From Limosilactobacillus oris DSM 4864 (lineage in GTDB: Bacteria > Bacillota > Bacilli > Lactobacillales > Lactobacillaceae), in the NCBI RefSeq assembly GCF_001434465.1, contig NZ_AZGE01000011.1, forward strand, positions 1 to 48,197: 48,197 bases of DNA. Reading direction: 5' to 3'. The notes under the pieces are model-generated. The model saw nothing but the letters and a program-made list of their open reading frames with translations. It searched no databases and had not been told where the DNA came from. Below are positions 434-25,566 of this stretch, piece after piece; the stretch's first letter is position 1; every line of letters begins with the position of its first letter. The position numbers were made by a program, and so were the translations under genes.

Positions 434-2140
434 TTATAGTTTTCGCAAATCTGACCAATAGTCAATGCAATCGTTGTTCCCGTATTCATCAGAGCTATAA
501 CGATCAATTATTTGCAACTTGTCCCCCTGTGCAAGAGCACGTTGGATCTTAGCATCGGGCTTAAAGTTTACGTTAAATCCTGAGTTTGCACTTTCATATA
601 CATCAGGATAAATCTTAGCAATATCAGGGCGACTCACTTGATTAGCGACCTTGACCCGGGTAATCTCCCTTCCCTGAGTCGCATCAAATAAAATGACATA
701 GTGGTATGGTCGACCAACAATCTGATCACTAATATGCCAACCACTAGCTTGAATGCTACCATCCGGCTTCAAGGATAACGAATCAAGATAACCAGTATTC
801 TGTTGGAATGACTGTGCTGCAAAGAAATGATGAACGAAAGTTCCTTCACCAGACTGTTTATCATTCGTATACCGAGCAATCACTTGTAATTGGTGACCAT
901 TCTTCAAAGCTGATGTCAGAGCAGCATTATCTTTGATATTAAACGCCACGTCAAAACCACTCTGAGATGCACCATAAATATTCGGATTATCAGCAGCAAC
1001 ATCTGCTCGTGCGCGGCCATTAGTAACTTGCTGACGCCCAATTTCACGACCAGTGGTTGCATCAAGCAAAATAACATACATTGCTTGCGCACCAGCACTC
1101 CGACTATCCGCATACCAACCAGTTGCCCGAACCGTATCGCCATCAATTCTAAATGATTCTAAGCGTTGGTTACTCTGGTTATTATAAAAATTCTTGGACT
1201 GCTTAAACCAATAATCAGTAATATTTCCTTCACCAGTTTCAGAGTCACAATAGCGAGCCAGAACTCGTAATGAGTGGCCCTCTAACAGTGCCTTCTGTAG
1301 TCCACCATACTTAGCAATGTCAAAATCCGCAACAAAGCCAGCATTATTACTATTAATAACGTTTGGATAAAGCTTAGCAATATCAGGTCGACTTTCAGTT
1401 GATGCATTAACTCGTGCAACTTCCTTACCTGTTTGATCATCAATCAATAAAATTAGCTGGTTAGGTTCCACTAACGATTTATCAGCAGCATGCCAACCGC
1501 TTACCCGGAGGTGACCATTGTAGAGGCTAAAGTCATCAACAGCAGCAATATTATTGTTAAATGCCCGTGGAGTAAACCAGTAATCAATGTTTCCACCACC
1601 ATTGGGATCACTGTACCGACTGATTACCTGAACAGAGTCACCATTCATGATTGCCGCTCTTAGCTTATCATTCATGTTAAAAGAGACATTAAAACCTGAA
1701 TTGCCACTATTATAAACGTTGGCAAAAGCTCTCCCAACATCAGCACGACTAACATTATTAACGGTCTGACGGGCAATCTCTTTCCCGGTTGTTGAATCCA
1801 ATAAAATCAACTCATGCTTACCACGACCGATTGCTTGATTAGAAGCATGCCAACCTACAATTGTCACGCCACCGTTCGTAACCTGAAATCTATCTATGTT
1901 AGCGATGTTAGTATTAAAAGCAACACTGTTGAAATTGTGGTCATTATAATTACTATTACCATCATTCGAACTAGTATAGCGAATTAAAACTTTAATATGG
2001 TGACCATTAGCGATTGTATTTGCAAGGTTACCATTTAAGGCAAAGCTAGCGTTGAAACCCGAATCGCCAGCACCATAAATGCCATTATAAGCCTTCGCCA
2101 CATCTGGACGACTCACGGCACTAACTTGCTGACGTACCAA
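434..2140 (-). pseudogene. C-terminal repeat part of the frameshifted GH25 protein
   Basis: This is the detached C-terminal part of the GH25 lysozyme gene directly upstream. It holds four complete copies of the shared surface repeat plus the rest of a first copy. Each copy shows the landmark order GWHA (or GWYA/GWHI), an ILL/ILF-D strand, RPD(V/I), SGF, a RYS/RYT strand, and YWF. Upstream the reading frame continues in register (D-Q-D-T-G) to about 2160, where one extra base separates it from the lysozyme frame. There is no signal peptide and no ribosome site at its first ATG. Repaired, the whole protein would be about 938 aa with five repeats. It ends within a wall-binding-type repeat, with no LPXTG motif. 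Confidence 0.75.
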
Positions 2141-2159
2141 CTCGTTACCAGTATCTTGG

Positions 2160-3251
2160 TCAAATTAAAATTATAAAACGATTGGCCTTCCCCTGATTAT
2201 TATTATCGGCAAACCAACCGGCAACATCGAGGGTGTTGTTATTGGCGTTAATACTAAAGTTATCCAAGTTCGCCGCGCTAGTCGTCTGATGGCCGGCGTA
2301 GTTAGCAAACATCCCAAAGTCAATGGAGGCATCAATATTAGTACCATTCCAGTTGTCAGTATACTGCCAAGCACCGTAGCCCCGACTCTGGACGGTATTA
2401 CGGTAGTTCCCATAGGCAGCCACCCAGGTCCGTGCTCGCCCAACGGTGGAACTAACGTTATACTGCTGGTCATAGTACCAGCCAGTGTAGACCCCGTGGT
2501 TATTGAAGCCCAACGAACTCAGCGTTTGCCAGAAGACATTCAAATTATTGACAATCCCCGCGTATTGTGTCTGAGGAACGCTTTCGACATCCGCAATCAT
2601 CAGCGTATCATTCCCCAACCCAACCACACGGGCCATCCGGGCAAAGAGCTGGGCCTCTGCCTGAGCCTGTGCAGCAGTCGTGAAGCGGACAAAGTGGTAA
2701 GCCGAAACCGTCATCCCCGCCGCCTGGGCCCGGGAAACCTGCTGCTGAGCGTAACCATTGGTCCAGCCGGTACTTTCCGACAGCTTGACAACAACATTGT
2801 TGATTCCCTGGTTGTGGTACTGGCGGAACGTTTCTTCGGAAATGTTCGGCTGGTAGGCCGAGATGTCTAACGTGTCCGCAGTGGATAAATTGTTGGTTGC
2901 CGCGTAGGCCGCCGTCGTCACGGCATTAGCATTAACCGGTGCGGCACTCGCTTGCTGAACGTTCAGGGTCGTCGTTGCAGCAGCGGTCGTTTTGTCATTA
3001 GCCGCTGTGCCGCTGGTTTGTGTACCAGCCGTAACGGTGCTTTCCAGCATCGCGTTAGTCGTCGAATCAGTAGCATCGGCCGGAGTTGCAACTTGACTAG
3101 CCACCGCACTGACCTGGCTCGTCGTAGTAGCTGGCGTGGCATCATCGGCCTGTCCATTAACCGTACCAAACGCCATTACCCCAAAGGCGACTGCTGCACA
3201 GCACCATAGTTTTCCACTCTTGTACAATTTAAACCGTTTCTTGGCTTCCAT
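2160..3251 (-). CDS. GH25 lysozyme with KxYKxGKxW signal (truncated by frameshift)
   Basis: Secreted muramidase of glycoside hydrolase family 25, which cuts the MurNAc-GlcNAc bond of peptidoglycan. Residues 9-17 (KLYKSGKLW) match the KxYKxGKxW export signal, followed by a hydrophobic segment. A Thr/Ala-rich linker runs to about 125. The GH25 domain covers about 128-318, with Asp129 (DIS motif) and the Asp221-x-Glu223 pair (ADVES) as expected active-site acids. The first surface repeat starts at about 328 and stops at a premature TGA. The start chosen at 3251 follows AAGGAAG. An upstream ATG at 3287 has no ribosome site. The catalytic domain is intact, so a shortened lysozyme lacking the repeat array could still be made. 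The gene lies downstream of rmlD behind a terminator. Confidence 0.85.
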   Translation of the reverse strand: MEAKKRFKLYKSGKLWCCAAVAFGVMAFGTVNGQADDATPATTTSQVSAVASQVATPADATDSTTNAMLESTVTAGTQTSGTAANDKTTAAATTTLNVQQASAAPVNANAVTTAAYAATNNLSTADTLDISAYQPNISEETFRQYHNQGINNVVVKLSESTGWTNGYAQQQVSRAQAAGMTVSAYHFVRFTTAAQAQAEAQLFARMARVVGLGNDTLMIADVESVPQTQYAGIVNNLNVFWQTLSSLGFNNHGVYTGWYYDQQYNVSSTVGRARTWVAAYGNYRNTVQSRGYGAWQYTDNWNGTNIDASIDFGMFANYAGHQTTSAANLDNFSINANNNTLDVAGWFADNNNQGKANRFIILI

Positions 3252-3305
3252 CTTAACTTTCTTCCTTAACACTTTCTTATTCTGCATAAGAAAAATTATA
3301 AGGCT

Positions 3306-3338
3306 TTAAAAAGTAAAAATCCCGTTTGCAACGGGATT
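3306..3338 (-). terminator. Intrinsic terminator after rmlD
   Basis: A perfect 9-bp stem, AATCCCGTT with AACGGGATT, closes a 3-base loop. On the minus strand it is followed by TTTTTACTTTTT. It separates rmlD from the lysozyme gene. Next to it (3344-3354) lies a small TCTGTTACAGA hairpin on the minus strand that recurs after the flippase gene. Confidence 0.85.
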
Positions 3339-3359
3339 GTAAATATCTGTAACAGACAA

Positions 3360-4202
3360 TTAATCAACTTGTTTCAGAAAACTTTGCAGGGCTTCCTGCC
3401 AACTGATTGGTGTAAAGCCGGTGGCCTTGACCTTATCCAAACTCATGATGGAATGCCGGGGCCGGTATGCCTTTTGCGGATACTCTTCCGAGGTTACCGC
3501 TGCCACCTCTACCGGCTGGTCTTTCAAAATCTCACTGGCAAACTCATACCAAGAGCAGGAGCCATCATTGGATAACTGGTACAGGCCGAATGGAATCTGG
3601 TGTTGAACCGCGTAAAGCATAAACTCCGCCAGGGTCCGGGTCCAAGTTGGCCGGCCAACCTGATCCGCAACGACGGTCAGCCGGTCATGGTCCTTTGCCA
3701 GCCGCAACATTGTGTAGACAAAGTTTTTACCATACTGACCGAAGACCCAGGAAGTTCGAATGATGTAGTACTTATCCATGATCTGTTCTACCAGCTGTTC
3801 GCCCGCCAGCTTGGCCTTACCGTACTCGTTCTTCGGGTTGGTTGGCGCATCAACCTGGTATTCACCTTCATTGGTCCCGTCGAAAACGTAGTCGGTACTG
3901 ATATACACCAGAGTGGCACCCGCCTGTTGAGCGGCTTCGGCAACGTTCTTGGTACCGGCCTCGTTGACCGCCCAGTTCAAGTCTTTCTTTTCGTCTTCGG
4001 CTGGATCCACGGCGGTAAAGGCAGCACAGTGGAAGACGATTTCCGGCTGCTCCGTATTAAAGCGGGCGTCAACGGTAGCCTTATCGGTAATATCCATCGA
4101 CTGGGAGTCAAAGGCACTGTACTCAATTCCCTGCTCATCCAATAAGTGGCGGAGTTCGGTCCCCAGTTGCCCGTTAGCCCCAGTAATTAAAATTTTAGAC
4201 AT
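3360..4202 (-). CDS. rmlD: dTDP-4-dehydrorhamnose reductase RmlD
   Basis: Last step of dTDP-L-rhamnose synthesis: NAD(P)H-dependent reduction of dTDP-4-keto-L-rhamnose. At 280 aa it has the usual family length. The N-terminus is a Rossmann fold with GANGQLG (residues 8-14). The STDYVFDG segment at about 103-110 and the YGKAK motif further on give the short-chain dehydrogenase Tyr-x-x-x-Lys pair. The ATG at 4202 follows GGAAGGGAG at good spacing. It is the last gene of the rmlA-C-B-D order but is separated from rmlB by a hairpin with a T run, so it may be read at a lower level than the rest of the operon. Confidence 0.93.
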   Translation of the reverse strand: MSKILITGANGQLGTELRHLLDEQGIEYSAFDSQSMDITDKATVDARFNTEQPEIVFHCAAFTAVDPAEDEKKDLNWAVNEAGTKNVAEAAQQAGATLVYISTDYVFDGTNEGEYQVDAPTNPKNEYGKAKLAGEQLVEQIMDKYYIIRTSWVFGQYGKNFVYTMLRLAKDHDRLTVVADQVGRPTWTRTLAEFMLYAVQHQIPFGLYQLSNDGSCSWYEFASEILKDQPVEVAAVTSEEYPQKAYRPRHSIMSLDKVKATGFTPISWQEALQSFLKQVD

Positions 4203-4217
4203 AGGTTCTCCCTTCCG

Positions 4218-4256
4218 AAAAAAGAGGCTGCTGGTTCAACCCACAGTCTCTTTTTT
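4218..4256. terminator. Bidirectional terminator-like hairpin between rmlB and rmlD
   Basis: Arms AAAAAAGAGGCTG and CAGTCTCTTTTTT pair with one G-T wobble, giving A and T runs on both sides. Both neighbouring genes are read on the minus strand, so this is an internal, probably leaky, terminator. The following bases (AAGATAACGTGC, then CCCTGTCGAGGA, about 4264-4293) also occur at 38440-38610. The site therefore looks like a short member of the dispersed hairpin repeat described there. Confidence 0.6.
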
Positions 4257-4312: not shown

Positions 4313-5296
4313 TTACTTCAAAGCCGCCTTGGCCTTCAGTGGCTGCCACCAGTCTTCGTTGTCCTTGTACCAGTCAATCGTCTTCACGATTCCAGTATCA
4401 AAGGTGTATTCTGGCTTCCAGCCCAGTTCAGTTTCAATCTTCGTCGGGTCGATGGCGTAGCGCTTATCGTGGCCCAACCGGTCCTTGACGTACTTGATGT
4501 GGTCTTCGGAAATTCCCAGGTTATCCACGATCAGGTGAACGATCTCGTTGTTGGTCCGTTCGTTGTGGCCACCAACGTTGTAAATTTCACCCGGCTTACC
4601 ATCACGGAGGACCAGGTCAATCGCTTGGCAGTGGTCGGAAACGTAGAGCCAGTCACGGATATTCTTACCATTCCCGTAGATTGGCAGGTCCTTGCCTTCC
4701 ATCCCGTTAGAAGTCATCAGCGGAATCAGCTTTTCAGGGAATTGGTATGGCCCGTAGTTGTTGGAGCAACGGGTGATGTTAACGTTCAGACCGTAAGTCT
4801 CGTAGTAGGCCCGAACCATCATGTCAGCAGAGGCCTTGCTTGCGGAGTACGGTGAGTTTGGTTGCAGTGGCGATTCCTCGGTGAAGTAGCCGGTGGCTCC
4901 TAGGGTCCCGTAAACTTCGTCGGTGGAAACCTGCAGGAACTTCTCAACCCCCTCGCGCTTTGCCACGTCCAAGAGGGCCAGGGTCCCCTGGACATTGGTT
5001 TCCACGAAGACTTCGGGGTGGAGGATTGACCGGTCAACGTGCGATTCGGCCGCGAAGTTGACGATGTGGTCGATGTTGAATTCGTGCACCAGGTGGGTAA
5101 CAAGCTCCCGGTTGACGATGTTCCCCTTAACAAAGTGGTAGTGTGGGTTGTCCTTAACGTCGTCCAGGTTGTGGATGTTCCCCGCATAGGTTAAGAGATC
5201 AAGGTTGATCAGGTTGTCATCCGGGTGCTTTTCCAGCATGTAGTGAATAAAGTTAGAACCGATAAAGCCGGCCCCACCAGTAACTAAAATATTCAT
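4313..5296 (-). CDS. rmlB: dTDP-glucose 4,6-dehydratase RmlB
   Basis: Converts dTDP-glucose to dTDP-4-keto-6-deoxyglucose, the second step of dTDP-rhamnose synthesis. The 327-aa protein is an extended short-chain dehydrogenase. It has the NAD-binding GGAGFIGSN at residues 7-15, the STDEVYG loop with the family's Asp-Glu catalytic pair, and the YSASKA motif with catalytic Tyr and Lys. The ATG at 5296 lies 2 bases after the rmlC stop, and its GGAGG site lies inside the end of rmlC, so the two genes are translationally linked. Confidence 0.95.
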   Translation of the reverse strand: MNILVTGGAGFIGSNFIHYMLEKHPDDNLINLDLLTYAGNIHNLDDVKDNPHYHFVKGNIVNRELVTHLVHEFNIDHIVNFAAESHVDRSILHPEVFVETNVQGTLALLDVAKREGVEKFLQVSTDEVYGTLGATGYFTEESPLQPNSPYSASKASADMMVRAYYETYGLNVNITRCSNNYGPYQFPEKLIPLMTSNGMEGKDLPIYGNGKNIRDWLYVSDHCQAIDLVLRDGKPGEIYNVGGHNERTNNEIVHLIVDNLGISEDHIKYVKDRLGHDKRYAIDPTKIETELGWKPEYTFDTGIVKTIDWYKDNEDWWQPLKAKAALK

Positions 5297-5298: not shown

Positions 5299-5874
5299 TT
5301 ACTTGTCCTCCCCGTAAGTGAAGTTAATTTCGGCGTCCTTGAATGATGGGTGGTGCTGATCCTTTTCGGAGAGAATCAGGTGGTCAACCGGCATTGGCCA
5401 CTTGATGTCCAAGTCAGGGTCATCAAAGGCGATCCCGCGGTCGGCTTCCGGTGCGTAGTAGCCATCAACCTTGTAGGCCACGTTGACGTTAGGCGTCAGG
5501 GTAACGAAACCGTGTGCGAAGCCTTTAGGCACTAGGAGTTGACGATGGTTGTATTCACTCAGGATGAAGCCTTCCCACTTGCCATAAGCTGGTGAGCCCT
5601 TCCGAATATCAACGATAACGTCGTAAATCGCCCCGGTAACGGCCCGCAGCAACTTAGTTTGGGAGTACGGTGCCAACTGGTAGTGCATCCCCCGCAGGAC
5701 TCCTGGTTCCACGGACAGTGACTGGTTGTCCTGGGTAAATTCAACGTTGATGCCAGCTTCTTCAAACTTATTCTTCGTGTAGGTTTCGGTAAAGAAGCCC
5801 CGGTGGTCACCGAAGACGTCGGTTTCCACAATCTTGGCATCAGGCAATGACGTATCAATAACTTTCAATGACAT
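5299..5874 (-). CDS. rmlC: dTDP-4-dehydrorhamnose 3,5-epimerase RmlC
   Basis: Epimerises dTDP-4-keto-6-deoxyglucose at C3 and C5 to the L-rhamno form. It is a 191-aa cupin-fold enzyme of normal length. Recognisable segments are GDHRGFFTETY (residues 22-32), the RGMHYQ strand carrying the catalytic His, and PKGFAHGF in the second half. The ATG at 5874 follows AAGGAGCGAG. It lies between rmlA and rmlB in one transcript. Confidence 0.94.
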   Translation of the reverse strand: MSLKVIDTSLPDAKIVETDVFGDHRGFFTETYTKNKFEEAGINVEFTQDNQSLSVEPGVLRGMHYQLAPYSQTKLLRAVTGAIYDVIVDIRKGSPAYGKWEGFILSEYNHRQLLVPKGFAHGFVTLTPNVNVAYKVDGYYAPEADRGIAFDDPDLDIKWPMPVDHLILSEKDQHHPSFKDAEINFTYGEDK

Positions 5875-5888: not shown

Positions 5889-6758
5889 TTAATCTTCCTT
5901 AGCCAGCCGTAAGAGGTATTGGCCATAATCATTCTTCTTTAGCGGTTGAGCCAGCTTAACCAGCTGGTCCTTGTCGATGTAGCCCATCCGGTAGGCAATT
6001 TCTTCGAGGGCCGCGACCTTGAGATTCTGCCGCCGTTCAATCGTAGCAATAAAGTTGGCCGCTTCCAGCATGGAATCATGGGTCCCGGTGTCTAACCAGG
6101 CATAGCCCCGCCCCATCAGCTTGACGTCGAGCTTACCCCGGCGCAGGTATTCCTTATTGACGTCGGTAATCTCGAGCTCGCCCCGGGCAGACGGCTGAAT
6201 GTGCTTGGCAATATCAACTACGTCGTTATCGTAGAAGTATAGGCCGGTAACCGCATAGTTGCTCTTTGGGTGGGCCGGTTTTTCTTCGATTGATAACGCG
6301 TGCATCTGATCATCGAAGTCTACGACACCAAACCGTTCCGGGTCGTTGACGTGGTAGCCAAAGACGGTTGCCCCGTCGGTCTTCTTCGCCGCCGACTGAA
6401 CCAGGTCGGATAATCCGGCCCCGTAGTAGATGTTGTCGCCTAAGATCAGGCAGACGCTGTCGTCACCAATGAAATCTTCACCAAGGATGAAGGCCTCAGC
6501 CAGTCCGTTTGGTTTTTCTTGAACCTTGTAGGAAAAGTGCAATCCCAATTCTGAGCCATCGCCCAGTAGGTTCTTGAACAGTGGCATAAATTCCGGAGTA
6601 GAAATCACCAGGATGTCGCGAATCCCCGCCAACATCAGGGTTGACAAGGGGTAGTACACCATTGGCTTATCATAAACTGGAATCAGCTGCTTTGAAATTC
6701 CCCGGGTAATCGGGTACAGGCGGGTCCCCGACCCACCAGCTAAAATAATTCCTTTCAT
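5889..6758 (-). CDS. rmlA: Glucose-1-phosphate thymidylyltransferase RmlA
   Basis: Makes dTDP-glucose from glucose-1-phosphate and dTTP, the entry step of dTDP-rhamnose synthesis. The 289-aa protein starts [16 protein letters not shown], the nucleotidyltransferase signature, with the catalytic R and the [13 protein letters not shown] substrate loop nearby and LGDNIYYG in the middle. I place the start at 6758, preceded by a perfect AAGGAGG. The frame runs 18 codons further upstream, but that stretch has no family similarity and no ribosome site. First gene of the rmlA-C-B-D order. Confidence 0.95.
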
Positions 6759-6878
6759 AATGGCCTCCTTAAAATGCCAAAATCCATGTTTAATTTTAGC
6801 ACACTTGGGCACTTGAAATGATTAAAACTAGCTAAAAAACATGAAAGGAGCCATGACGTTTACTCAAATCTAGCCATG

Positions 6879-6918: not shown

Positions 6919-9243
6919 TTATTTAATTGTAACGTTGAGAATTGTAACGTTGAGTGGTTCAAACCAGTAATCAATGTGATTACCCTCACCGCTAGCAGAA
7001 TCACTGTAACGAGAAATCACTTGCAAGCGATGACCGCTAAGCGATGAATCCACTGGTAAGCTGACCTTAAAGCCGGATTGACCTGCATTATAGACAGCAA
7101 ACGCATTGGCGACATCCGGACGGGCAACGTTTTCTACCAATTGCCGTTCCACTTCTTTACCGGTAGTCCAATCATACAAAATGATAAAGTGATATGGCTT
7201 ATTAAGCCCTTGATCAGTAGCATGCCAGCCGGCAAGATCAAGCTGATTATTCTTCACTGCTACTTGGTCTAGACTAGCCAAGTTTTGATTAAAAGTTTGC
7301 GGTGCAAACCAATAATCAACAACGTTACCATTTCCGGCCGGGTCATCCGTGTAACGAGAAATGACCTGAATCTGATCACCGACCATTCCAGCCGTTAGCG
7401 GAACATTAATATCGAAGCCGGATTGGCCCGCATTGTAAATATTAGAATAAGCACGAGTGATATCTGTCCGTGCCTTATTTTCAACCCGGTAACGAGTAAT
7501 TTCTTTTCCTTTACTCTTATCAAACACAATAATGTAATGGTACTTCTTACCCACACTCTGGTCAGAAGCATGCCAACCTGAGATGTGTACTTGGTTCCCG
7601 CTTACCTTAAAGTTTTCCAAGTAAGCCCGGTTCTGGTTGAACGTCTTAGGAGCAAACCAGTAATCAACTGCATTTCCATTTCCGGCTGGATCATCCGTGT
7701 ACCGGGAAATTACTTGAATTTGATCGCCAGCCAATGCTGAACTAAACTTCAATTTCAAACTAAAACCTGAGTTAGCAGCATTATAAAGACCTGGGAATGC
7801 CCGTGCAACATCGTTTCGTGTCACACTGTTTACTAGGTAGCGCCCCAATTCAGTCTGCTTTGAGCCATCAAAGATGATGATATAGTGATACTTCTTACCT
7901 AAACTGTTATCAGCAGCGTGCCAACCAGAAATATTAATATTTCCGGTTGTCGCATCTAATGACATATTGTCAAGAGCGGCCATATTAGCGTTCAGCGACA
8001 CGGAATTAAATGACAGATCTTTGCCGCCATTAGGGTCACCCTTGGCATCATTAGTATAACGGGATACGACTTTGATATTTCTACCAGCAAAAGTGCTAGT
8101 ATACGGAATAGTTATATCAAAGCCGCTCCAACCAGCTGCACCAGTATTAGAATACAGATTCTGAATATCCTGTCGATAGGTTTTAGAAACATCTTGTCGG
8201 TATAATTCCTGATCTGTATTCCCGTCAAGTAATATAATAAAGTGATGCATATTACTATTAGATGCACTAGCAACGTGCCAGCCAGAAATATGGAGCTGGT
8301 CTCCACGTACTGACAAGTCATCAACATGGCCAGTATTGGTATCAAAGGCTTCTTGGTCCCAAGCAGTCAAGCCGTAGCGTTCAATCACAGAGTTCAGAGT
8401 AGTCGTGTAACTCGGGTCGGTTGCGTAACCGTCGGCCCGAATTAAGTAGGTCACATCGCGGTAGTTAGTCTTCCACAGCAAGTTGTGGTAACGGCTATTG
8501 GCAACCAGGAAGTAACCGTGGTCCTGAACGGACTGGGAGTTGTTGTCATAGGCTCGGAAAGCGTCGTTGATGATGACGCTCTGCCCACCGTAAACTTCCC
8601 GCGTTGGCAGGGTGACGCTATGGCCATTGTAGGAACCCTTGATTCCAAACAGGTTGTGGTATTGGGAAGCCAAACTGGATTGCCCCCAACCACTTTCGAT
8701 GATCGCTTGGGCAGCAGTCAAGGAAGGTAAGACCCCGTACTGTTTCCAGGTAGAGATAGCACCGTCATGAATTGAATCTAAAAAGGCCTTTTGGGCGGCG
8801 GTCAAACCTGCCGTGTTGAGGCTGGCTGCACCACTACCACCATTGGCAGCATTCACCGGTTCAGCAGTAACATTGTATTGGCTAGTAGAATAGCCGGGAT
8901 TCGTCTCCACAACCGGCTTGTTTGCGGCTGCCTGGACTGCACTGTTATCAAGGCTAACGGCTCCGTCATCATTACTGTTATTGGTAGTTTGGTTCGCAGC
9001 TACCGCACTTTGCGTGTAGACCTGGGCGGACGCTACACTTTGATTTTGGCTCGTACTTACATTTAAGATCTGAGAATTATTGTTTTGCGTATTTGCGTCA
9101 GTAGTAGCCACTACCTGGGCATTTGCATCGGCAGACTGGCTGCTATCGGCTTGGGCGTCAGCCTGGAAGAACAACAGAGACGCACCAAAGGTAAATAAAA
9201 CAGGTAATACGATTTTTACTCGTGATTGTTTCTTGTTTTTCAT
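6919..9243 (-). CDS. GH73 endo-beta-N-acetylglucosaminidase with four surface repeats
   Basis: Secreted peptidoglycan glucosaminidase. Residues 1-33 form a Sec signal peptide (basic start, hydrophobic core, AQA-type cleavage). Unlike its relatives it has no KxYKxGKxW motif. A Ser/Gln/Asn-rich low-complexity stretch runs to about 140. The GH73 domain covers about 145-295, with the catalytic Glu183 in AAQAIIESGWGQS and the YHNLFGIKG segment typical of the family. Four copies of the shared repeat fill about 305-774. Each runs from an L-D/E-x-(F/L/M) start through GWHA/GWHV, RxDI or RPDV, SGF and ISRY to YWF. The protein ends inside the last copy with no sortase motif. It lies between the NlpC/P60 gene and rmlA as a single-gene unit. 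Confidence 0.9.
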   Translation of the reverse strand: MKNKKQSRVKIVLPVLFTFGASLLFFQADAQADSSQSADANAQVVATTDANTQNNNSQILNVSTSQNQSVASAQVYTQSAVAANQTTNNSNDDGAVSLDNSAVQAAANKPVVETNPGYSTSQYNVTAEPVNAANGGSGAASLNTAGLTAAQKAFLDSIHDGAISTWKQYGVLPSLTAAQAIIESGWGQSSLASQYHNLFGIKGSYNGHSVTLPTREVYGGQSVIINDAFRAYDNNSQSVQDHGYFLVANSRYHNLLWKTNYRDVTYLIRADGYATDPSYTTTLNSVIERYGLTAWDQEAFDTNTGHVDDLSVRGDQLHISGWHVASASNSNMHHFIILLDGNTDQELYRQDVSKTYRQDIQNLYSNTGAAGWSGFDITIPYTSTFAGRNIKVVSRYTNDAKGDPNGGKDLSFNSVSLNANMAALDNMSLDATTGNINISGWHAADNSLGKKYHYIIIFDGSKQTELGRYLVNSVTRNDVARAFPGLYNAANSGFSLKLKFSSALAGDQIQVISRYTDDPAGNGNAVDYWFAPKTFNQNRAYLENFKVSGNQVHISGWHASDQSVGKKYHYIIVFDKSKGKEITRYRVENKARTDITRAYSNIYNAGQSGFDINVPLTAGMVGDQIQVISRYTDDPAGNGNVVDYWFAPQTFNQNLASLDQVAVKNNQLDLAGWHATDQGLNKPYHFIILYDWTTGKEVERQLVENVARPDVANAFAVYNAGQSGFKVSLPVDSSLSGHRLQVISRYSDSASGEGNHIDYWFEPLNVTILNVTIK
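6922..8325 (-). repeat. Four-copy surface repeat array in the GH73 protein
   Basis: About 117 aa per unit. GWHA/V occurs at the start of each of the four units. Units 2 and 3 share long stretches (KKYHYIIxFD, then RYTDDPAGNGN), suggesting duplication within this gene. Confidence 0.8.
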
Positions 9244-13388: not shown

Positions 13389-13428
13389 TGTGTCTCCCCC
13401 CAACTTCTTGATTAAATTAACAAGGCTT

Positions 13429-15308: not shown

Positions 15309-15418
15309 TTCGGGCAGGAGGTCAAAGCTGGCATTAAAGCCAGACTTTCCGGCAGTTATGATTTGGGGAAATGCACGGGCAACGTCATTCCGTTCCGTTA
15401 AACTAACCGTTTTGCGCC

Positions 15419-17911
15419 CTAACTCACGGTGCTGCCTGGCGTCAAAGATAATAATCGTGTGATATGGACGCCCGACCGCTTGATTAGCAGCATGCCAGCC
15501 AGCGACTTGGAGCTGGTTGTTGGCAAACTGATCTGATCAAGGGCGGCCTTGTTATCATCAGTTAAGAGCCGGAGCGGGGCGAACCAGTAGTCCACATAGT
15601 CGGTATTGGCGTCCTGGGACTTGCTCCAACGTGAAATAATCTGGATATTATCGGTTGCCATTTCGGGCAGAAGGTCAAAGCTGACGTTGAAACCGGACTC
15701 ACCGGCGTTGAAAATTTGCGGGAAGGCTCTGGCGACGTCAGCTCGTTCGGCTGGGGTAACGCTAATCCGGGTTAACTCGCGATTCTGACTAGCATCGAAG
15801 AGGATAATCGTGTGATACTGGCGTCCAGCTGCTTGGTTAGTGGCGTGCCAGCCGGCAACGGTGAAGTGGTTGTTGATAACCTTGGCTTGGTCAAGGTAGG
15901 CATTATTGTCTTCGCCACTCATCATTAGTTTTGCCGGGAACCAATAGTCTACGTAGTTGGTATTGGTATCATTGCCACTCCAACGGGAAACGATTTGCAA
16001 CTGGTCACCAACCACGCCCGGGGTAACATCAAAGTCGGCGGAAAAGCCTGAATAGCCAGCATTATAGATTGTCGGGTAAACGGCTTGAACATCATTCCTT
16101 AAATCATTACCCGCGGTAGTTCGGCCAATTTCACAATGGCGGGTCGCATCAAACAGAATAATCGTATGGGTAGCGCCTGGAGCCTGGTTGGTAGCGTGCC
16201 AACCAGCAACATGTAATTTCCCGTTCACAAAAGCGCACTGGTCCAGCCAGGCGTGGCTACCCATATCGGCCTTAATCGGTCCAAACGAGTAATCAGCATT
16301 CAAACTTCCGGTATCATAACTATCGCCGTTTGTATAACGGGCGATGACCCCCAGAGGATCATTTAAATTCTTGAGGGGAATGTTTAAAACAACGCTAAAT
16401 TTAGCTTGATTACTATTAGCAATCTTCGGGTAGGCTTGTTGAGCATCCTGGCTGGCTAATGGCGCGTAGCTTGTTTCGGCAACTATCTCCCCAGTTTTTT
16501 GATCTTTGATGATAATGTAAGCATACTTTAATACTCGGCTAGCGTCGGCAACGTGCCAGCCTTCGAGGCCGAGGCGGGCCATTGTAGAGCCGTTTGAAGG
16601 GGTAATGATTACGGAAGTGAGCTTACCGTAATTTTCTTTGGCAAAATCCTTAGCGACGGTGTAGCTGAGGGTAATGGTTTGGTCGGGCGTATTGCTATAT
16701 ACCGTTTGAGCTGGAACCGATGGAACAATGTACTCGTCGCCAAAGTTCCAAGGAGCAGTAAAAGCAGGCCATTTTGATGTGGGCCATTCATAGCTAACTG
16801 GTCCATTTGTTGGAACCCGCTTAATCCCATCAAGTGTCCCCACTCGTAAAACAGGTCTTTGGGTACCATCCGGTAGATTGAAGATTATCGTCTGAGTAAC
16901 CTTTTTCTCGACCTTATACCATGGCGTATAGACGTCAATCATTCCATTTGCATTAGAGAGTTGAAGCTCTGCATTATTAAGTTTAGCCTGGAGGGTACTT
17001 ATTTTACTAGCTAGATTGACTTTAGTCGCTTGCTCATTTTTGAGTTGCGTCGTATATGTTTCAACCTGCTTTTGTGCTTGCTCGTACTTATCCTTATCCT
17101 CCGGTAGATATGGATTGTGGTCATTAGCAAGTGCCATCATCTGATTAGAAAGCTGTGTGCCCTTTTGGGTAAGCTCAACCGTTTTGGTTTCATGTATGAC
17201 TGCGTCTTGCTTTTCCTGAAATGCCTTATAGGCATCCTGATCTACCTTGTTCGCTTTATTGTACTCCTCTCTGAGCTCAGTATGACCTTGGTGGAAATAC
17301 AAGTCATATAATTTTTCACTCTGAACATGAGCCTTCTGATAAACGTCGTATAATTTATGCCACTCGCTTCTGAGCTCAGCAATGTGTGCAGACCACTCTT
17401 TCCTTTGCTCGATGTTTTCTTCTAACTGCGCGTGAAGATCTTTTTGCTTACTAAGCTTAGCTGATCTTAATTGGTTTAGTTGCTGGTTTCCTTGATTGAT
17501 TTGCTCTTGGTCATAAGTGACTGCTTGTTCATTCTTGGTTTGTTGTTCTTTTAGTTGCTCAATTCCGTTATTATATTCATTTATTTGCTGTTGCGCTTCC
17601 TGCGCCTGTTTTTCGTAAGAGGCCCGCGCGGCCTTGTTCATGTCCCCACTAATTACTTTAATCCGCGGATCATTGTCATCATCACTAGCGTTGCTTGCAC
17701 TAGTGTCCTCTGCCTGTTGAGTGGCGGTCCCGGTAACCGGGGCACTGAAGTTGCCGTCGTTGCTTACCTGTTGAGTTTCAGTCCCACTAACCGTGTCGGC
17801 ATGGGCAACCTGGCTGTTCACTGTCGTCCCTGCGACTGCAATGCTGGCAACCGTCAATGTGGCGACTACCCAGCGCTTGCCAGCTTTATACATTTTCTTA
17901 TGCTCAGTCAT
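15419..17911 (-). CDS. Coiled-coil surface protein with KxYKxGKxW signal and repeats (frameshifted)
   Basis: A large secreted protein without a recognisable enzyme domain, probably an adhesin or wall-structural protein. Residues 6-14 (KMYKAGKRW) are the KxYKxGKxW signal, and cleavage is likely near HADT (about 39). A long Gln/Glu/Lys-rich coiled coil spans about 90-323. A beta-rich domain at about 335-420 (KKVTQTIIFNLPDG at the start, TITLSYTV at the end) resembles Mub B2-like or mucin-binding repeats. Shared surface repeats begin at about 430 (GLEGWHVAD), with three complete before the break. After LDQIS the frame changes, and the last 30 or so residues are unrelated out-of-frame sequence. 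The ATG follows GGGAGGAAAG. The product as it stands loses repeats 4-6. Confidence 0.85.
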   Translation of the reverse strand: MTEHKKMYKAGKRWVVATLTVASIAVAGTTVNSQVAHADTVSGTETQQVSNDGNFSAPVTGTATQQAEDTSASNASDDDNDPRIKVISGDMNKAARASYEKQAQEAQQQINEYNNGIEQLKEQQTKNEQAVTYDQEQINQGNQQLNQLRSAKLSKQKDLHAQLEENIEQRKEWSAHIAELRSEWHKLYDVYQKAHVQSEKLYDLYFHQGHTELREEYNKANKVDQDAYKAFQEKQDAVIHETKTVELTQKGTQLSNQMMALANDHNPYLPEDKDKYEQAQKQVETYTTQLKNEQATKVNLASKISTLQAKLNNAELQLSNANGMIDVYTPWYKVEKKVTQTIIFNLPDGTQRPVLRVGTLDGIKRVPTNGPVSYEWPTSKWPAFTAPWNFGDEYIVPSVPAQTVYSNTPDQTITLSYTVAKDFAKENYGKLTSVIITPSNGSTMARLGLEGWHVADASRVLKYAYIIIKDQKTGEIVAETSYAPLASQDAQQAYPKIANSNQAKFSVVLNIPLKNLNDPLGVIARYTNGDSYDTGSLNADYSFGPIKADMGSHAWLDQCAFVNGKLHVAGWHATNQAPGATHTIILFDATRHCEIGRTTAGNDLRNDVQAVYPTIYNAGYSGFSADFDVTPGVVGDQLQIVSRWSGNDTNTNYVDYWFPAKLMMSGEDNNAYLDQAKVINNHFTVAGWHATNQAAGRQYHTIILFDASQNRELTRISVTPAERADVARAFPQIFNAGESGFNVSFDLLPEMATDNIQIISRWSKSQDANTDYVDYWFAPLRLLTDDNKAALDQISLPTTSSKSLAGMLLIKRSGVHITRLLSLTPGSTVS

Positions 17912-18064: not shown

Positions 18065-20572
18065 TTAATAACTTAAAGCCCGTTGCGCGTCTGCGTTCCA
18101 GTGACCATAGAATTCACCATAGGACATCGCTTCCTTGCGGCCGGTCCACGGGTTGTTGTAGAAGAAACCATTAGCGTTGTAACCAGTCAGGGTGATGGCG
18201 TGGTTGACAAAGCCGTTCATGTTCGCCATCCACACTACGACCAGGTGGCCGATGTTGAGCTTGTCCTGGATAGCAGCTAGAGAAGCCCCAGTCATCACCT
18301 GGCTGGTGCCCAAGTGGCGCTGAACCACCGGCGCAATCCCGGTTGGGAAGACCCACCAGCCAGTAACGCTGTATGGGTTGCCAACAAAGCCGTAGTTACC
18401 ATTTGAACTTCGTGGCGTTTCATTGGCCACTTGGAACTTGTTGATATTGACCCCGGCGTAACGGAGCATCATCGTGACCGCCGTCATTTCGCACCCTGTC
18501 GGCAGCTCGGGGTTCTGGCAGATAACTTCGGCATTGTTGATTGCACCAATAATTCTCCCCGCAGCATCTCTCTGCAAAATTGCTCCTGAATTAACGAAGA
18601 AGCTGTTCGAGTAAGCGTCAACCGCATGACCATTACCATTGATATCGTCGGTAAAACGGTGAATAACGGTTACCCACTGGTGCCTCATATTATCTGGCAG
18701 ATCAAAGCCAAGCTGGTAGCCAGACGTACTGCTATTCAAAAGATAACCAGCATACTTAGCAATGTCCGGACGACTGCGATTAATATCTAAAACCCGCTGC
18801 CGGTATAACTCACGACCATTGTTGCCTAGGAAAATCAGGTATTGGTAGGGCTTATCCGCCACCGCGTTGCTTGCGTGCCAACCGCTCACGTACATCGTGT
18901 TGTTATACGGGTCGACGCTGACCTTGTCAAAGCCAGACTGGTTAGTATCATGACTGACGGTAAACTGGTCATCATCGTTAACGTTGCCATACTGGTCAGC
19001 AGAAAAACGGAGAACCAGACTGAGCTTCCCGTTAGCAACTGCCGGATTGACAAGCTTAATCAGGGTTGAAAAACCACTGACCGCACTCCCGTAGGTATGG
19101 GCATACACCTTGCCGACGTCAGGGCGGGCCGTCAGAGTAACCGCCTGGCGACCAATTTCCTTACCGTCGTTGAGGAGGATGAGGTAGGTATAGGGGCGGC
19201 CCGCCGAATAGTCGCTGACCATCCAGCCGCTGACCTTCAAGCCCGCCTTGGTCATCTCCTGCGATTCAATATTAAACGCCCGCTGGTTGAGCGTCGGAAG
19301 GGTGAACCAATAATCCGTGCACTGACCACCGCCACCATTGTCCTGGTCGCTGGTCGAATACCGGCTGACTACCGAGTAGGAATGGCCGCCAATCAGCTGA
19401 GCGTCGCCTAAATCAAAGCTGCCAGAAAAGCCGGACTGGCGGGCAGTTTTGAGATTATGGTAAATGTTTGCAATATCAGGACGGGCCACAGTTGTTGCTC
19501 TCGTCACCGCCACCTGACGCTTAGCAGTGTTATCAAACAAAATCAAAAAATGGTTTGATTCAAACTGTGAAATGTCATTGGCATGCCAGCCGCTGACCGT
19601 AATCTTTTTCCGGTCAGCAAGATTATAAGCGTCAAGGTAGCCAGCATTAACATAGTCTGTACTGGTGAACGGCGTAAACCAGTAATCAATGTTATCCGTA
19701 TTGCCATCAGCTGCTTTGCTATAACGGTCAACTATCTGCAATTGGTGATGGAAGTTCAGTCCCGCAATCTTAAATTGAGCTAAAAAGCCGGATTGACCCG
19801 CCCGATAAATTCCCGGAAAAGCTCGCGTAATATCCGGCCGAGCCACCATTTGCTGAATCAGCTGCCGGCCAACTTCCTTGCCAGTCGTCCGGTCAAGCAG
19901 GATAACGTAGTGATATGGCTTGTCCGCTGCCAAGTTAGTAGCGTGCCAACCAGCAACCTCTAATTCATCGTTTTTTACTACTGCCCGGTCTAAATTACCG
20001 ATGTTAGACCGATTAATCACAATCGGTGCGAACCAGTAATCGAAATTATTGACGTTGCCTGCCTGGTCAGCGCTATACCGACTGATAATTTGGACACTTG
20101 ATAAGTTTGCCAGCTGGTCCTTCAAATCAAAGTTCACGTTAAAGCCGGACCGCCCCGCACCGGCAACGTTGAAGGACCGTTGTATATCGGGACGTGCTAC
20201 GGCTTGATCAGTAACATTTTGCCGGGCAATTTCCCGATTGGTAGCTGGGTCAAGCGCGATGATATAGTGGTACGGCCGGTCAATCGACCCATTACTAGCA
20301 TGCCAGCCATCGACGTTTAACTGTCCCTGATCATTTACGGACTGACGATCCAAGTGCGCGTAATTCCCTTGATCTGCCAGATTGGGTTGCTCAGCTGCTT
20401 GCTCTTGTTTACTTTCCTGAACTTGCGCAGTAGGAGTAGTCGCTTCAGTAAAGGTAGCTGTGTCGGCATGAGCGGTAGCAGCTGCCATTATGACTCCCAT
20501 TGAAAGGACTGTCAGTGTCGCTACAAGCCAATGCTTTCCCGCCTTATATAACTTTTTGTGCTCCTTAAACAT
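18065..20572 (-). CDS. C39-like cysteine peptidase with KxYKxGKxW signal and five surface repeats
   Basis: An 835-aa secreted protein. Residues 7-15 (KLYKAGKHW) are the KxYKxGKxW signal, with cleavage near AHADT (about 38). Five shared repeats fill about 70-660. Unit 4 has GWMVSD instead of GWHA. The C-terminal 170 residues are a papain-fold domain of the peptidase C39-like group. The likely catalytic Cys is in LPTGCEMTAV (about 694), the His in VNHAITLTGY (about 791) and an Asn/Asp-type residue in YNNPW (about 806). The natural substrate is unknown, and a peptidoglycan or surface-protein peptide is likely. The ATG follows CGGGGGAG, and a TATAAT box lies at 20605-20610 on the minus strand. 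The five-repeat array is collinear with that of the M23 protein encoded at 22954-25566. Confidence 0.88.
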   Translation of the reverse strand: MFKEHKKLYKAGKHWLVATLTVLSMGVIMAAATAHADTATFTEATTPTAQVQESKQEQAAEQPNLADQGNYAHLDRQSVNDQGQLNVDGWHASNGSIDRPYHYIIALDPATNREIARQNVTDQAVARPDIQRSFNVAGAGRSGFNVNFDLKDQLANLSSVQIISRYSADQAGNVNNFDYWFAPIVINRSNIGNLDRAVVKNDELEVAGWHATNLAADKPYHYVILLDRTTGKEVGRQLIQQMVARPDITRAFPGIYRAGQSGFLAQFKIAGLNFHHQLQIVDRYSKAADGNTDNIDYWFTPFTSTDYVNAGYLDAYNLADRKKITVSGWHANDISQFESNHFLILFDNTAKRQVAVTRATTVARPDIANIYHNLKTARQSGFSGSFDLGDAQLIGGHSYSVVSRYSTSDQDNGGGGQCTDYWFTLPTLNQRAFNIESQEMTKAGLKVSGWMVSDYSAGRPYTYLILLNDGKEIGRQAVTLTARPDVGKVYAHTYGSAVSGFSTLIKLVNPAVANGKLSLVLRFSADQYGNVNDDDQFTVSHDTNQSGFDKVSVDPYNNTMYVSGWHASNAVADKPYQYLIFLGNNGRELYRQRVLDINRSRPDIAKYAGYLLNSSTSGYQLGFDLPDNMRHQWVTVIHRFTDDINGNGHAVDAYSNSFFVNSGAILQRDAAGRIIGAINNAEVICQNPELPTGCEMTAVTMMLRYAGVNINKFQVANETPRSSNGNYGFVGNPYSVTGWWVFPTGIAPVVQRHLGTSQVMTGASLAAIQDKLNIGHLVVVWMANMNGFVNHAITLTGYNANGFFYNNPWTGRKEAMSYGEFYGHWNADAQRALSY
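18587..20365 (-). repeat. Five-copy surface repeat array in the C39 protein
   Basis: Unit-specific features (unit 3 with ESNHFLILFDNTA, unit 4 with SGWM.SDY, unit 5 with ADKPYQ.LIF) recur in the same order in the M23 protein. The whole array was therefore inherited or exchanged as a block. Confidence 0.85.
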
Positions 20573-20766: not shown

Positions 20767-20796
20767 CAAGTAGTTATTAGCATAAAGGCTACTTAC

Positions 20797-22835: not shown

Positions 22836-22891
22836 ATGATTCATTCCCTCCACTATTAACCTCTTGCATTATTTCACACTCATTCCTTCCT

Positions 22892-22936
22892 GTAAATAAA
22901 AAATGTGACGCTTCCCATCATAGAAAACGTCACATT
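22892..22936 (-). terminator. Intrinsic terminator after the M23 gene
   Basis: A perfect 9-bp stem, AATGTGACG with CGTCACATT. On the minus strand the run TTTTTTATTTA follows. Confidence 0.85.
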
Positions 22937-22953
22937 ATTAGCACTTATTAGTA

Positions 22954-25566
22954 TTAACCGTTCAGACCATTCCGGATGATTTCCAGTGGGTTCAGCCAAG
23001 TACCATCGTTGGTAAATGACTTAGCCAGGGCCCGGTTAAAGTTATGTTCACGGGTAATACCGATGTGAACGTGAGAGGTGTCACGGTTACCGATAACGTC
23101 CCCGACTTCGATCTTTTGACCCGGAGTAACGTTGATGTTACCACGGTTAGAGAAGGCTTCTTGGTAAACAATCAGGTATTCACCAGTGTCTTCCAAGACG
23201 TACCAGTCCAAGCCAGCTGTGTAGCCAACACCAACAATCGTCCCACTGTGGATAGCATGAACTTGAGTACCAGGGTGATCGTAAGCACCAAAGTCCAGAC
23301 CGTCGTGGAAGCCGTTTTGCCGGAATTCACCACCAGCATTAACCCCGAATAGTTGGGCGCCCATGAAGTGACCTTCACCAACGGATGGGAATGGCCATGC
23401 CCAGCGGTTGTTATGGATGGAAACTGGGTCAGACCACATATCCACTGCATTTCCGTTTCCATAAACATCATTCGTAAAACGGTGAATAATCCGGACAGTA
23501 TGGTGGTCTAGGCTAGAAGGAAGCGTAAAGCCAAGCTTAAACCCTGCCTTATCACTGTTAAGAATTTGTGGACATACCTTAGCAAGATCAGGACGGCTAT
23601 TGTTTGTGTCTAGAACCTGCTGACGGTAAATTTCTTTGCCAGTATTTTGATCAATAAAGATTAAGAACTGGTATGGCTTATCAGCTGTCTGTTCACTAGT
23701 ATGCCAACCGCTAACGTAGATACTGTTATCAAGCACATTAATTTCATCAAAAGCACCTGCACTAGTAGAGTAATCCTTACTCCACTGGTCTATGCAATCA
23801 GTATTTCCGTCCGCAGACTTAGAGAACCGAAGCAGGACCTGCATATTTCCAGTTAACTGAGTAGGGTTGAGTTTTACAACAGTGTTGAAACCACTATTAG
23901 CACTGTTGTATAAGTTAGGAAATGCCTTAGCAACATCCGGCCGAGCAATCAAGTCTACCTTTTGCCGTGCAACTTCCTTCCCATTGTTCATGATCAAAAC
24001 ATAGGCGTTGTTATAACCAGCAGCGTAATCACTAGCCATCCAACCGCTAACTTGTACCCCATCCTTGGTTGTCTTAATGCTGTCAATCGCACTAGCTTGC
24101 TGACTGTACTTAATAGGGTTAAACCAGTAATCAGTGTACTGACCACCGTCACCATTACCATCCGCACTTGTCGAGTAACGACTTACTACTGAATAGGAAT
24201 GCCCCGGTACAAGGTTAATTCCTGCTAAGTCAAAGCTGACCTTGTAGCCAGACTGGCCTGCGGTAGCAACAGATGGGAAAGCACGAGCAACATCTGGCCG
24301 AGCAACCGCCGCTGCTTTAACTGATGCCACTTGCTTATTTGCGGTATTGTCAAATAAAATCAAGAAGTGGTTGCTTTCCAACTTAGTAATGTCATCCGCA
24401 TGCCAGCCGCTAATGGTCAGTTGCTTACCGTTGCTGACATCGAAACTGTCTAAACTACCCTGATTAGTATAATTCCCAGTGGTGATTGGCGTGAAGTAGT
24501 AATCAACATTCTTGCCAAGGCCATCCTTGCTAGTTGAGTAACGACTTACTACTTGCAACTTATGGTTCAAGTTCAACTGTTTTAAGCTGAAGTGAACGTT
24601 AAAACCTGACTGTCCCGCCCCATCGATCTGGCTGTACGCACGAGCAATATCGTCCCGTTGCGTTCCGTCAGTAACTAATTGCTGTGCAACGGTTTGCCCA
24701 GTCGTTTGATCAATAATCATAATGATATGGTACGGCTTGTCAGCAGCTTGGTTAGTAGTGTTCCAGCCACCAATGTTTAATTGACCATCACTGACCGCAA
24801 CGGTGTCCAAGTAGCCGTAGTTTTTCCGGTCAATAGTAATTGGTGCAAACCAATAATCAACATTATTCTGGTTACCATATAAGTCGCTACTGTAACGACT
24901 GATGACCCGAATCGAACTAGTGTTGGCTAAAGCTTCTTTTGACAAGTTAAACTGAACGTTAAAACCTGACTGTCCTGCTCCATAAACATTATGGGCCTTT
25001 TGAACATCAGGACGTGCAACAGCATTATCAGTGATGTTCTGCCGCGCAATTTCCTTATTATCCTGATCCAAAATAATCACATAATGGTATGGCTTATCCT
25101 TAGAGTCGTTAGTAGCATGCCAGCCATTAATGTTTAACTGACCGTTAGTGTTTAATGAAGCATTATCAACGGCAGCGTAGTTACCATTATCCTTCGTATC
25201 ATAGGTAACCGTTTCTTGACTATTGTCAGTCGTTGCCTGCTTGTTGGCACCAGACTGGTCAGTAGTATTTTCAGTAGCTGAGTTTGCTTGGTTAGCAACC
25301 TTTTGTCCATTAGCTACTGCCTGACTAGTTGCTGGAGCATTAGTATCTTCTGTATTGTTAGTATTATTATCAGCATTTGAGCTGCCATTAGTGTTTGCGT
25401 TGTTTTGGTCTAGTGTTTGAACACTAGCTTGTTTTTGGTTAGTATTATCAATCTGGTCAGCAGAAACCTTACCGTGCATTAAGAACAATGCACTCCCACA
25501 GACGGTGATTGTTGGTAAAATTTTGCTTTTGAAATTTTTAAGGTTAAAAATAGTACTTTCCTCCAA
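22954..25566 (-). CDS. M23 metallo-endopeptidase with five surface repeats
   Basis: A secreted zinc endopeptidase of the lysostaphin/LytM group, expected to cut peptidoglycan cross-bridges or stem peptides. A hydrophobic signal lies at about 15-36 with VSA-DQ as likely cleavage site. There is no KxYKxGKxW. A Gln/Asn/Thr-rich stretch runs to about 128, and five shared repeats fill about 130-715. The C-terminal 150 residues are the M23 domain, with GFHDGLD (His754, Asp758) and SHVHIG (His832, His834) as zinc ligands and catalytic His. The start is odd. The frame opens with TTG at 25566, but a strong GGAGGA site overlaps that codon and points to an ATT codon at 25551, and there is no ATG before residue 30. 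The unit ends at a terminator. Confidence 0.88.
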   Translation of the reverse strand: MEESTIFNLKNFKSKILPTITVCGSALFLMHGKVSADQIDNTNQKQASVQTLDQNNANTNGSSNADNNTNNTEDTNAPATSQAVANGQKVANQANSATENTTDQSGANKQATTDNSQETVTYDTKDNGNYAAVDNASLNTNGQLNINGWHATNDSKDKPYHYVIILDQDNKEIARQNITDNAVARPDVQKAHNVYGAGQSGFNVQFNLSKEALANTSSIRVISRYSSDLYGNQNNVDYWFAPITIDRKNYGYLDTVAVSDGQLNIGGWNTTNQAADKPYHIIMIIDQTTGQTVAQQLVTDGTQRDDIARAYSQIDGAGQSGFNVHFSLKQLNLNHKLQVVSRYSTSKDGLGKNVDYYFTPITTGNYTNQGSLDSFDVSNGKQLTISGWHADDITKLESNHFLILFDNTANKQVASVKAAAVARPDVARAFPSVATAGQSGYKVSFDLAGINLVPGHSYSVVSRYSTSADGNGDGGQYTDYWFNPIKYSQQASAIDSIKTTKDGVQVSGWMASDYAAGYNNAYVLIMNNGKEVARQKVDLIARPDVAKAFPNLYNSANSGFNTVVKLNPTQLTGNMQVLLRFSKSADGNTDCIDQWSKDYSTSAGAFDEINVLDNSIYVSGWHTSEQTADKPYQFLIFIDQNTGKEIYRQQVLDTNNSRPDLAKVCPQILNSDKAGFKLGFTLPSSLDHHTVRIIHRFTNDVYGNGNAVDMWSDPVSIHNNRWAWPFPSVGEGHFMGAQLFGVNAGGEFRQNGFHDGLDFGAYDHPGTQVHAIHSGTIVGVGYTAGLDWYVLEDTGEYLIVYQEAFSNRGNINVTPGQKIEVGDVIGNRDTSHVHIGITREHNFNRALAKSFTNDGTWLNPLEIIRNGLNG
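23413..25179 (-). repeat. Five-copy surface repeat array in the M23 protein
   Basis: Units of about 118 aa. Unit 2 reads GWNT and unit 4 GWMA in place of GWHA. The order of unit-specific features matches the C39 protein's array. Confidence 0.85.

Follow-up and report, generated by a model that had tools for sequence, protein, structure and literature searches.

A repeat module shared by exported proteins of Limosilactobacillus oris and by phage endolysins is a probable cell-wall-binding unit encoded beside rhamnose genes

The window analysed here, a stretch of 48,197 nucleotides from Limosilactobacillus oris DSM 4864 (contig NZ_AZGE01000011.1), encodes between positions 434 and 25566 of its minus strand six exported proteins that all bear one and the same repeat module, present in 33 copies of 109-123 amino acids (aa). 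Five copies belong to a GH25 protein, four to a GH73 protein, eight to an NlpC/P60 protein, six to a coiled-coil protein, five to a C39 protein and five to an M23 protein, the catalytic domains being assigned with Pfam (Table 1). These genes are interleaved with a polysaccharide cluster that extends to about 36 kb and includes the rml genes; the GH73 gene, directly upstream of rmlA, and the GH25 gene, directly downstream of rmlD, are on the same strand as the rml genes. The recurrence of the module on phage endolysins, and of its genes beside rml operons, marks it as a probable cell-wall-binding unit.

The copies were delimited with a profile built from the window itself, for which 29 seeds were chosen by their GW-type motif, so that its scores on window copies are partly circular; chance is excluded because the complete copies have E-values of 1.3e-31 or lower. 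Among the translated open reading frames (ORFs) of the window, 34 matches exceed 20 bits, of which 31 are complete (98-159 bits) and three are partial. Two of the partial matches (2163-2276 and 1913-2137) are the halves of a single copy in the GH25 gene that is split by a frame break, and the third (15216-15308) belongs to the end of a copy readable back to 15527 in its own frame, which gives the total of 33 and confirms the earlier sequence-only reading, where about 33 copies in six surface proteins amid polysaccharide genes had been counted. The PHROGs family phrog_35916, which is independent of the home-made profile, matches all six scanned protein frames at 2.5e-60 or better. Adjacent module envelopes are separated by -2 to 4 residues, and the mean identity of complete copies is 39% within one protein versus 34% between proteins. 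The frame breaks in the GH25 and coiled-coil genes could be real or could be assembly errors in a repeat-rich region. As a related locus (L089) encodes a GH25 protein with five modules and a coiled-coil protein (1152 aa) with six, each in one intact frame, the breaks may be peculiar to this genome or its assembly. The named relatives of the GH73 protein come from Limosilactobacillus in 10 of 11 loci.

Lactobacilli export many surface proteins that have no recognised anchor. A KxYKxGKxW signal is present in four of the six module proteins and absent from the GH73 and M23 proteins. The sequence-only reading had found no wall anchor in any of the six, and this stands as far as sorting signals are concerned, since no C-terminal sorting motif is present and the LPxT-like strings at residue 1137 of the NlpC protein and residue 796 of the coiled-coil protein are not followed by an anchor; it needs qualifying for the NlpC protein, where Pfam places a sub-threshold match to PG_binding_1. 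Between the NlpC and coiled-coil genes lies a gene for a lipoprotein-like protein (13544-14386) with sub-threshold similarity to Lreu_0056-like proteins.

Table 1. Module-bearing proteins and polysaccharide genes of the window
Feature	Position	Strand	Evidence and remarks
GH25 lysozyme, KxYKxGKxW signal, five modules	434..3287	-	PF01183 1.1e-29, PF19258 1.3e-9; frame change near 2140-2160, ORFs 2160-3287 + 434-2140
GH25 protein modules	449-796, 803-1171, 1196-1549, 1556-1906, split copy 1913-2137 + 2163-2276	-	profile
rmlD, dTDP-4-dehydrorhamnose reductase	3360..4202	-	PF04321 9.2e-108
rmlB, dTDP-glucose 4,6-dehydratase	4313..5296	-	relatives adjoin rmlC in other genomes; name from established family knowledge
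rmlC, dTDP-4-dehydrorhamnose 3,5-epimerase	5299..5874	-	PF00908 2.7e-69
rmlA, glucose-1-phosphate thymidylyltransferase	5889..6812	-	relatives adjoin rmlC; name from established family knowledge
GH73 glucosaminidase, four C-terminal modules	6919..9243	-	PF01832 6.7e-35
GH73 protein modules	6949-7281, 7285-7629, 7633-7983, 7990-8334	-	profile
NlpC/P60 protein, KxYKxGKxW signal, eight modules, weak PG_binding_1, NlpC/P60 domain	9453..13403	-	PF00877 5e-8, PF19258 2.8e-12, PF01471 3.7e-4 (below cut-off)
NlpC protein modules	10203-10541, 10560-10901, 10917-11267, 11283-11639, 11658-12008, 12024-12380, 12390-12734, 12738-13085	-	profile
Coiled-coil protein, KxYKxGKxW signal, six modules	14487..17911	-	frame change near 15530; ORFs 15419-17911 + 14487-15308
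Coiled-coil protein modules	14505-14834, 14853-15194, 15216-15527, 15572-15907, 15929-16255, 16268-16597	-	profile
C39-like peptidase protein, KxYKxGKxW signal, five modules	18065..20572	-	PF13529 1.5e-22, PF19258 5.5e-11
C39 protein modules	18599-18937, 18941-19276, 19286-19648, 19664-20002, 20012-20365	-	profile
Glycosyltransferase, GT2	20797-21741	-	PF00535 1e-24
Glycosyltransferase, GT4	21741-22853	-	PF13692 3.5e-23
M23 peptidase protein, five modules	22954..25566	-	PF01551 2.6e-8
M23 protein modules	23416-23760, 23767-24096, 24106-24462, 24478-24822, 24829-25182	-	profile
Flippase-like protein (Polysacc_synt)	25751-27178	-	PF01943 2.4e-20
glf, UDP-galactopyranose mutase	27182-28306	-	PF03275 1.1e-88
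Remaining cluster: glycosyltransferases, two DUF4422 proteins, three proteins without Pfam match at E 0.001, Bac_transf	29057..35917	-	Pfam
Priming sugar transferase (Bac_transf)	35264-35917	-	Pfam

Curated families do not describe the module: in nine window ORFs, no Pfam or NCBIfam model above its cut-off is best placed on a module except NAGLU_N, for which the whole-protein score passes and no single stretch does, and in a search of 31 single modules against Pfam at E 0.1 no family matches more than one of them. From its sequence, the module is the already published "RDV repeat" or FNIII-like unit of Lactobacillus GH70 glucansucrases, as described in the accessible text of that work (PMC11299179); the sequence-only reading had made no mention of it. 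The published consensus, R(P/N/S/T/Q)DV-x11-12-(S/A)G(Y/F)-x17-22-R(Y/F)S, is found in strict form in 5 of the 31 complete window copies and in a relaxed home-made form in 23; the strict form mostly misses the other module sets as well (57/162, 29/85, 40/158, 14/49 and 0/9). When window copies, other Lactobacillaceae genera, Limosilactobacillus-type phages and family f3 (taken by inference to be Enterococcaceae, as f4 is taken to be Streptococcaceae) are compared, the commonest residue is identical in all four groups at D6, G19, W20, E44, R47, R55, D57, S71, G72, F73, R93 and D106, at 68-100% per group. G19 and W20 reach 100% in the window and D6 81%; at position 58 valine is commonest in three groups and isoleucine occupies half of the window copies. 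Positions 55 and 72 exchange a charge: among 465 distinct copies, 415 combine a basic residue at 55 with Gly72 and 42 a non-basic residue at 55 with Arg or Lys at 72, both positions are basic in none and neither in eight. This swap recurs in 21 protein frames, two of them of family f3, and in seven of the eight modules of the window's NlpC protein, its count being no probability because the copies are related. The pattern suggests one obligatory positive charge that may be placed at either position. The GH73-protein module at 7285-7629 is predicted as an Ig/FNIII beta sandwich (predicted local distance difference test score 96.3), and a fold search returned a template modelling score of 0.78 to an Enterococcus phage endolysin. 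The prediction supports the Ig-like fold suggested by the sequence-only reading; the actinobacterial repeats with which it had been compared left no trace in the sequence and fold searches made.

Across the whole genome the profile gives 81 module matches spread over seven contigs; the window's contig accounts for 34, split copies being counted as pieces. Partners identified elsewhere with Pfam include YkuD, MBG, Amidase_5, Beta-lactamase2, a sub-threshold M23 and the GH25 of a phage endolysin.

The phage enzymes carry the case for wall binding. In one IMG/VR scan, nine of nine viral contigs encode a GH25-like protein (domain read by eye) in which two modules and then some 33 aa of tail follow the catalytic domain, and Pfam finds the same GH25 and two-module architecture in this genome, on contig C45. 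In both loci scanned with PHROGs, one of this genome (L119) and one of a phage contig (L102), the gene immediately upstream of the module endolysin encodes a holin, and the module is the part of the endolysin outside its catalytic domain; phrog_35916 itself is this module endolysin, listed without an assigned function. Against GenBank phages, tblastn returns 46 records that match the module, 43 of them named Enterococcus, and among the 30 matches listed 26 are annotated as amidase, endolysin, lysin or muramidase. The amidase EfAmi1 (E. faecium) contains one module (profile E 3e-13) in a domain that is absent from the crystal and for which, in the accessible part of the report, its authors supposed a carbohydrate-binding role (PMC10167349). 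In the 8 of 24 module-bearing f3 genomes that were inspected, the partners are by eye Ami2, CHAP/NlpC, lysozyme, GH25, amidase_3 and tail lysozyme; names assigned in this way, here and for some relatives' loci and the phages, did not come from family searches. The place of the module as the non-catalytic part of phage endolysins supports a role in cell-wall binding, as the sequence-only reading had proposed, and on this homology the repeat is very probably a wall-binding module. In one 858-aa frame (L168, genome G620) the module is inserted in a protein that resembles, by eye, a phage tail lysozyme, where it may have a use in phage entry besides lysis. One phage record labelled Acinetobacter (PQ554527.1) has an endolysin with a module otherwise associated with Enterococcus and Listeria, and the host label may be wrong.

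The connection to rhamnose is seen in gene presence and in gene position. Presence was compared in 50 genomes of the genus, the window's own included, of which 24 carry the module and 26 do not. The co-occurrence with rml genes expected from the window alone is found: rmlC is present in 21/24 module-bearing versus 8/26 module-free members (p=5.5e-5, the p-values of all presence tests ignoring the relatedness of genomes), the 21 including one fragment (G004) and 20 full genes. Restricted to genomes at least 90% complete, the counts are 19/21 versus 8/20 (p=9e-4). The galactofuranose gene glf does not discriminate (19/24 versus 23/26, p=0.46), so that the presence test singles out rmlC and the proposal that galactofuranose is a determinant is not supported. 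GH70 is likewise unrelated to module presence in the genus (4/24 versus 6/26) and was not found in this genome. Wider samples give 20/24 module-bearing versus 115/372 other genomes with rmlC in the family (p=4e-7) and 29/31 versus 154/364 in the order (p=1e-8); as at most 11 candidates were scored per genome in these two samples, copy numbers are lower bounds and a faint signal may have escaped notice. In an rpoB tree covering the 46 of 50 genus members with that gene, about 5.4 of 9-10 independent pairs change in the same direction and about 0.1 in the opposite one.

Physical linkage is the stronger evidence for a rhamnose connection. In 15 of the 20 module-bearing genus members with a full rmlC, a module lies within 2.6 kb of it; of the other five, one is not judgeable on a 3.5-kb contig (G019), one has a module about 10 kb from rmlD (G039) and three (G025, G034, G037) have no module in the stretch fetched around rmlC. 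In other genera, 8 of the 15 genomes with the module, spread over four genera, have a module frame no more than 10 kb away from an rml gene; of the remaining seven, G111 was not fetched, and for six (G083, G090, G099, G129, G333, G363) the sequence retrieved shows no rml gene, several of these stretches stopping at the end of a contig. Two of the eight (G155, G241) encode a GH73-type module protein on the strand of rmlB and about 60 bp away from it. Over 25 stretches from 23 genomes, the window not counted, module and rml genes are co-directional in 23 and separated by less than 300 bp in 15, distances being measured between stop-to-stop frames. An RmlC tree has two deep lineages with module linkage on both (11/13 and 13/23 rows) and at least four changes of linkage label forced by well supported branches; it leaves out two further rmlC contigs of genome G002 (L067, L068) and a repeat of G039 (L084), with G039 counted as linked. 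Because polysaccharide loci that always carry hydrolases could alone explain such linkage, this was tested in module-free genus members, where the five hydrolase domains of the window have no relative at E 1e-4 in any of eight rmlC stretches, a search that unrelated hydrolases would escape. The recurrent linkage of the module with rml operons across five genera is new, as is, on sequence similarity, its homology to binding domains of phage endolysins; neither is stated in the accessible parts of the literature found.

Two loci of one genome (L048 and L049, G021) contain separate rml operons, each flanked by GH25 and GH73 module proteins. In family f3, a three-module protein lies about 16-17 kb from rmlC in L169 (G453), where it is amidase-like by eye, and on contig 23 of G725. 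Inside the polysaccharide cluster of the window, three consecutive proteins at 30657-33523 have no Pfam match at E 0.001, and one of them may be a polymerase. Beyond the cluster, at 40591-44831, each of four neighbouring genes has a zinc-ribbon domain near its start, which looks like a local family expansion.

Wall binding and a rhamnose-containing ligand are what we infer from the computed homology, architecture, fold prediction and genomic association. The best combined explanation, which we regard as evenly poised, is that the repeat is a wall-binding module of Ig/FNIII-like fold that grips a rhamnose-containing secondary polymer. Short arrays of about two to eight near-linkerless modules would hold peptidoglycan hydrolases and other exported proteins non-covalently on the wall, and phages of these bacteria would use a pair of modules on their endolysins in the same way. 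The ligand is most likely a secondary wall polymer, often one containing rhamnose, and in the window it would be the polymer of the 3.3-36 kb cluster; hydrolases with a matching grip would then share the inheritance, and probably the transcription, of the polymer genes. For a rhamnose-containing polymer as the ligand, taken by itself, the genomic pattern leaves our confidence slightly short of even. More tentative still is the wider proposal of a lectin for this polymer that serves as a general non-covalent display system for about a dozen hydrolases and other proteins, makes their attachment dependent on the polymer of the same locus, is co-inherited with the polymer locus across genera and has been adopted by phages.

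Several observations weigh against a rhamnose-containing ligand, and many of them favour a conserved wall component, peptidoglycan or teichoic acid, with the adjacency to rml arising from a shared variable island or operon, an alternative that we consider appreciable if doubtful. The core residues are nearly constant across genera whose polysaccharides probably differ; the wall-binding domain of EpaU, by comparison, differs between E. faecalis strains in step with their polymer according to the accessible text (PMC13343894), so that a conserved ligand fits the constant motif better. Of the 81 genome matches, 47 lie on six further contigs, so the module is not confined to the polysaccharide locus. 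Modules often have glf nearby too (the window, L042, L045, L063 and L084 are examples), which makes the linkage one to the whole polysaccharide cluster, and of the three rmlC copies of G002 two (L067, L068) are on contigs with no module in the stretch. EfAmi1, with its single module, lyses several genera, a broad range as far as the accessible text reports it (PMC10167349). Within the genus, the tree-corrected association is borderline (median p 0.0625, range 0.004-0.63). At the order level, 24 of the 31 module genomes belong to family f3, whose members often have rmlC even when they lack the module, so that this association adds little, and many f4 genomes have rmlC and lack the module. Module-rich genomes without rmlC exist, namely G010 (a genus member with 27 copies, 93% complete) and G333 (another genus, six copies), and four more (G001, G015, G090, G111) have one to three module matches each and no rmlC. 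The RmlD-family matches of G010 and G333 are weak (1e-16 and 3e-14, versus 9e-108 for the window rmlD), and from their size we take them for other short-chain dehydrogenases. Rhamnose may accordingly be no absolute requirement, or the ligand may have been lost or replaced by another in these genomes; that the module binds the polymer of this very locus, as proposed earlier, is a tentative reading. A conserved component, however, is at odds with a linkage that is repeated in five genera and on two RmlC lineages, with the rmlC stretches of module-free members that lack the five hydrolase types, and with the discrimination seen for rmlC and not for glf.

A ligand-free role, in which the modules are FNIII-like structural spacers that push catalytic domains outward, is improbable. 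The tight packing and variable copy number suggest a rod, and FNIII domains of carbohydrate-active enzymes have been proposed as linkers in work cited in PMC11299179, where in the accessible text a linker role is judged less likely. The phage endolysins, in which only a short tail follows the modules, leave little to space; modules are terminal in the GH73 and GH25 proteins, and both the preservation of the motif over great distances and the charge swap speak for more than a spacer. Less probable again is a role in adhesion to host tissue or mucus. MBG-type domains or coiled-coil stalks (the coiled coil by eye) do occur in some carriers, and FNIII domains can mediate adhesion (PMC11299179), yet host adhesion would be useless to phage endolysins, and peptidoglycan is the target of most partners with a Pfam catalytic domain. 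Least credible is binding to the alpha-glucan made by GH70 glucansucrases, which are themselves five-copy carriers. In G021, G029 and G030, one contig does hold both a GH70 match and module matches, in open frames whose lengths agree, and glucan binding was earlier suggested for GH70 auxiliary domains according to the accessible text of PMC11299179; the scarcity of GH70 among module-bearing genomes, with none found in this one, and the module on Enterococcus phage lysins tell against it.

As a wall-binding module, the repeat would provide an anchor, open to experimental test, for a dozen or more proteins per genome and a possible reason for the RDV repeats on glucansucrases, and it would join host autolysins and phage endolysins through one binding unit. 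It leads to the prediction that polysaccharide type controls wall turnover and sensitivity to lysins; if the ligand is proven, the module would be useful for surface display and for lysin targeting in commensals.

Among known systems, the GH70 RDV repeat is the same unit: the module profile matches GH70-holding open frames of 1597 (G030), 1603 (G021) and 1609 aa (G029), and the accessible text of PMC11299179 describes the same layout of D, GW, R-x-D-V, SGF and R(Y/F)S and an Ig/FNIII sandwich. The setting differs, as the GH70 repeats described there precede a sugar polymerase and always number five, whereas the window modules are on wall hydrolases in arrays of 4-8 beside rml genes. The C-terminal domain of Enterococcus phage amidase endolysins (EFDG1, iF6, EfAmi1) and that of the GH25 type of phrog_35916 are homologous to the window module and differ in having only one or two copies, on phage enzymes. 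A further parallel is EpaU/AtlE of E. faecalis, described in the accessible parts of PMC13343894 and PMC9510096 as a GH25 autolysin with six C-terminal, OB-like repeats of about 74 aa. EpaU is encoded in the EPA locus and binds the EPA polymer through its wall-binding domain (PMC13343894), the ligand being a teichoic-acid-like decoration and not the rhamnan. Window and EPA locus share a wall hydrolase encoded within a rhamnose-polysaccharide locus, with one such hydrolase there as opposed to six module proteins here, and the descriptions set the Ig/FNIII-like window units apart from the shorter OB-like ones. So far as tested, EpaU is an analogue rather than a relative, and it offers a proven precedent for the principle.

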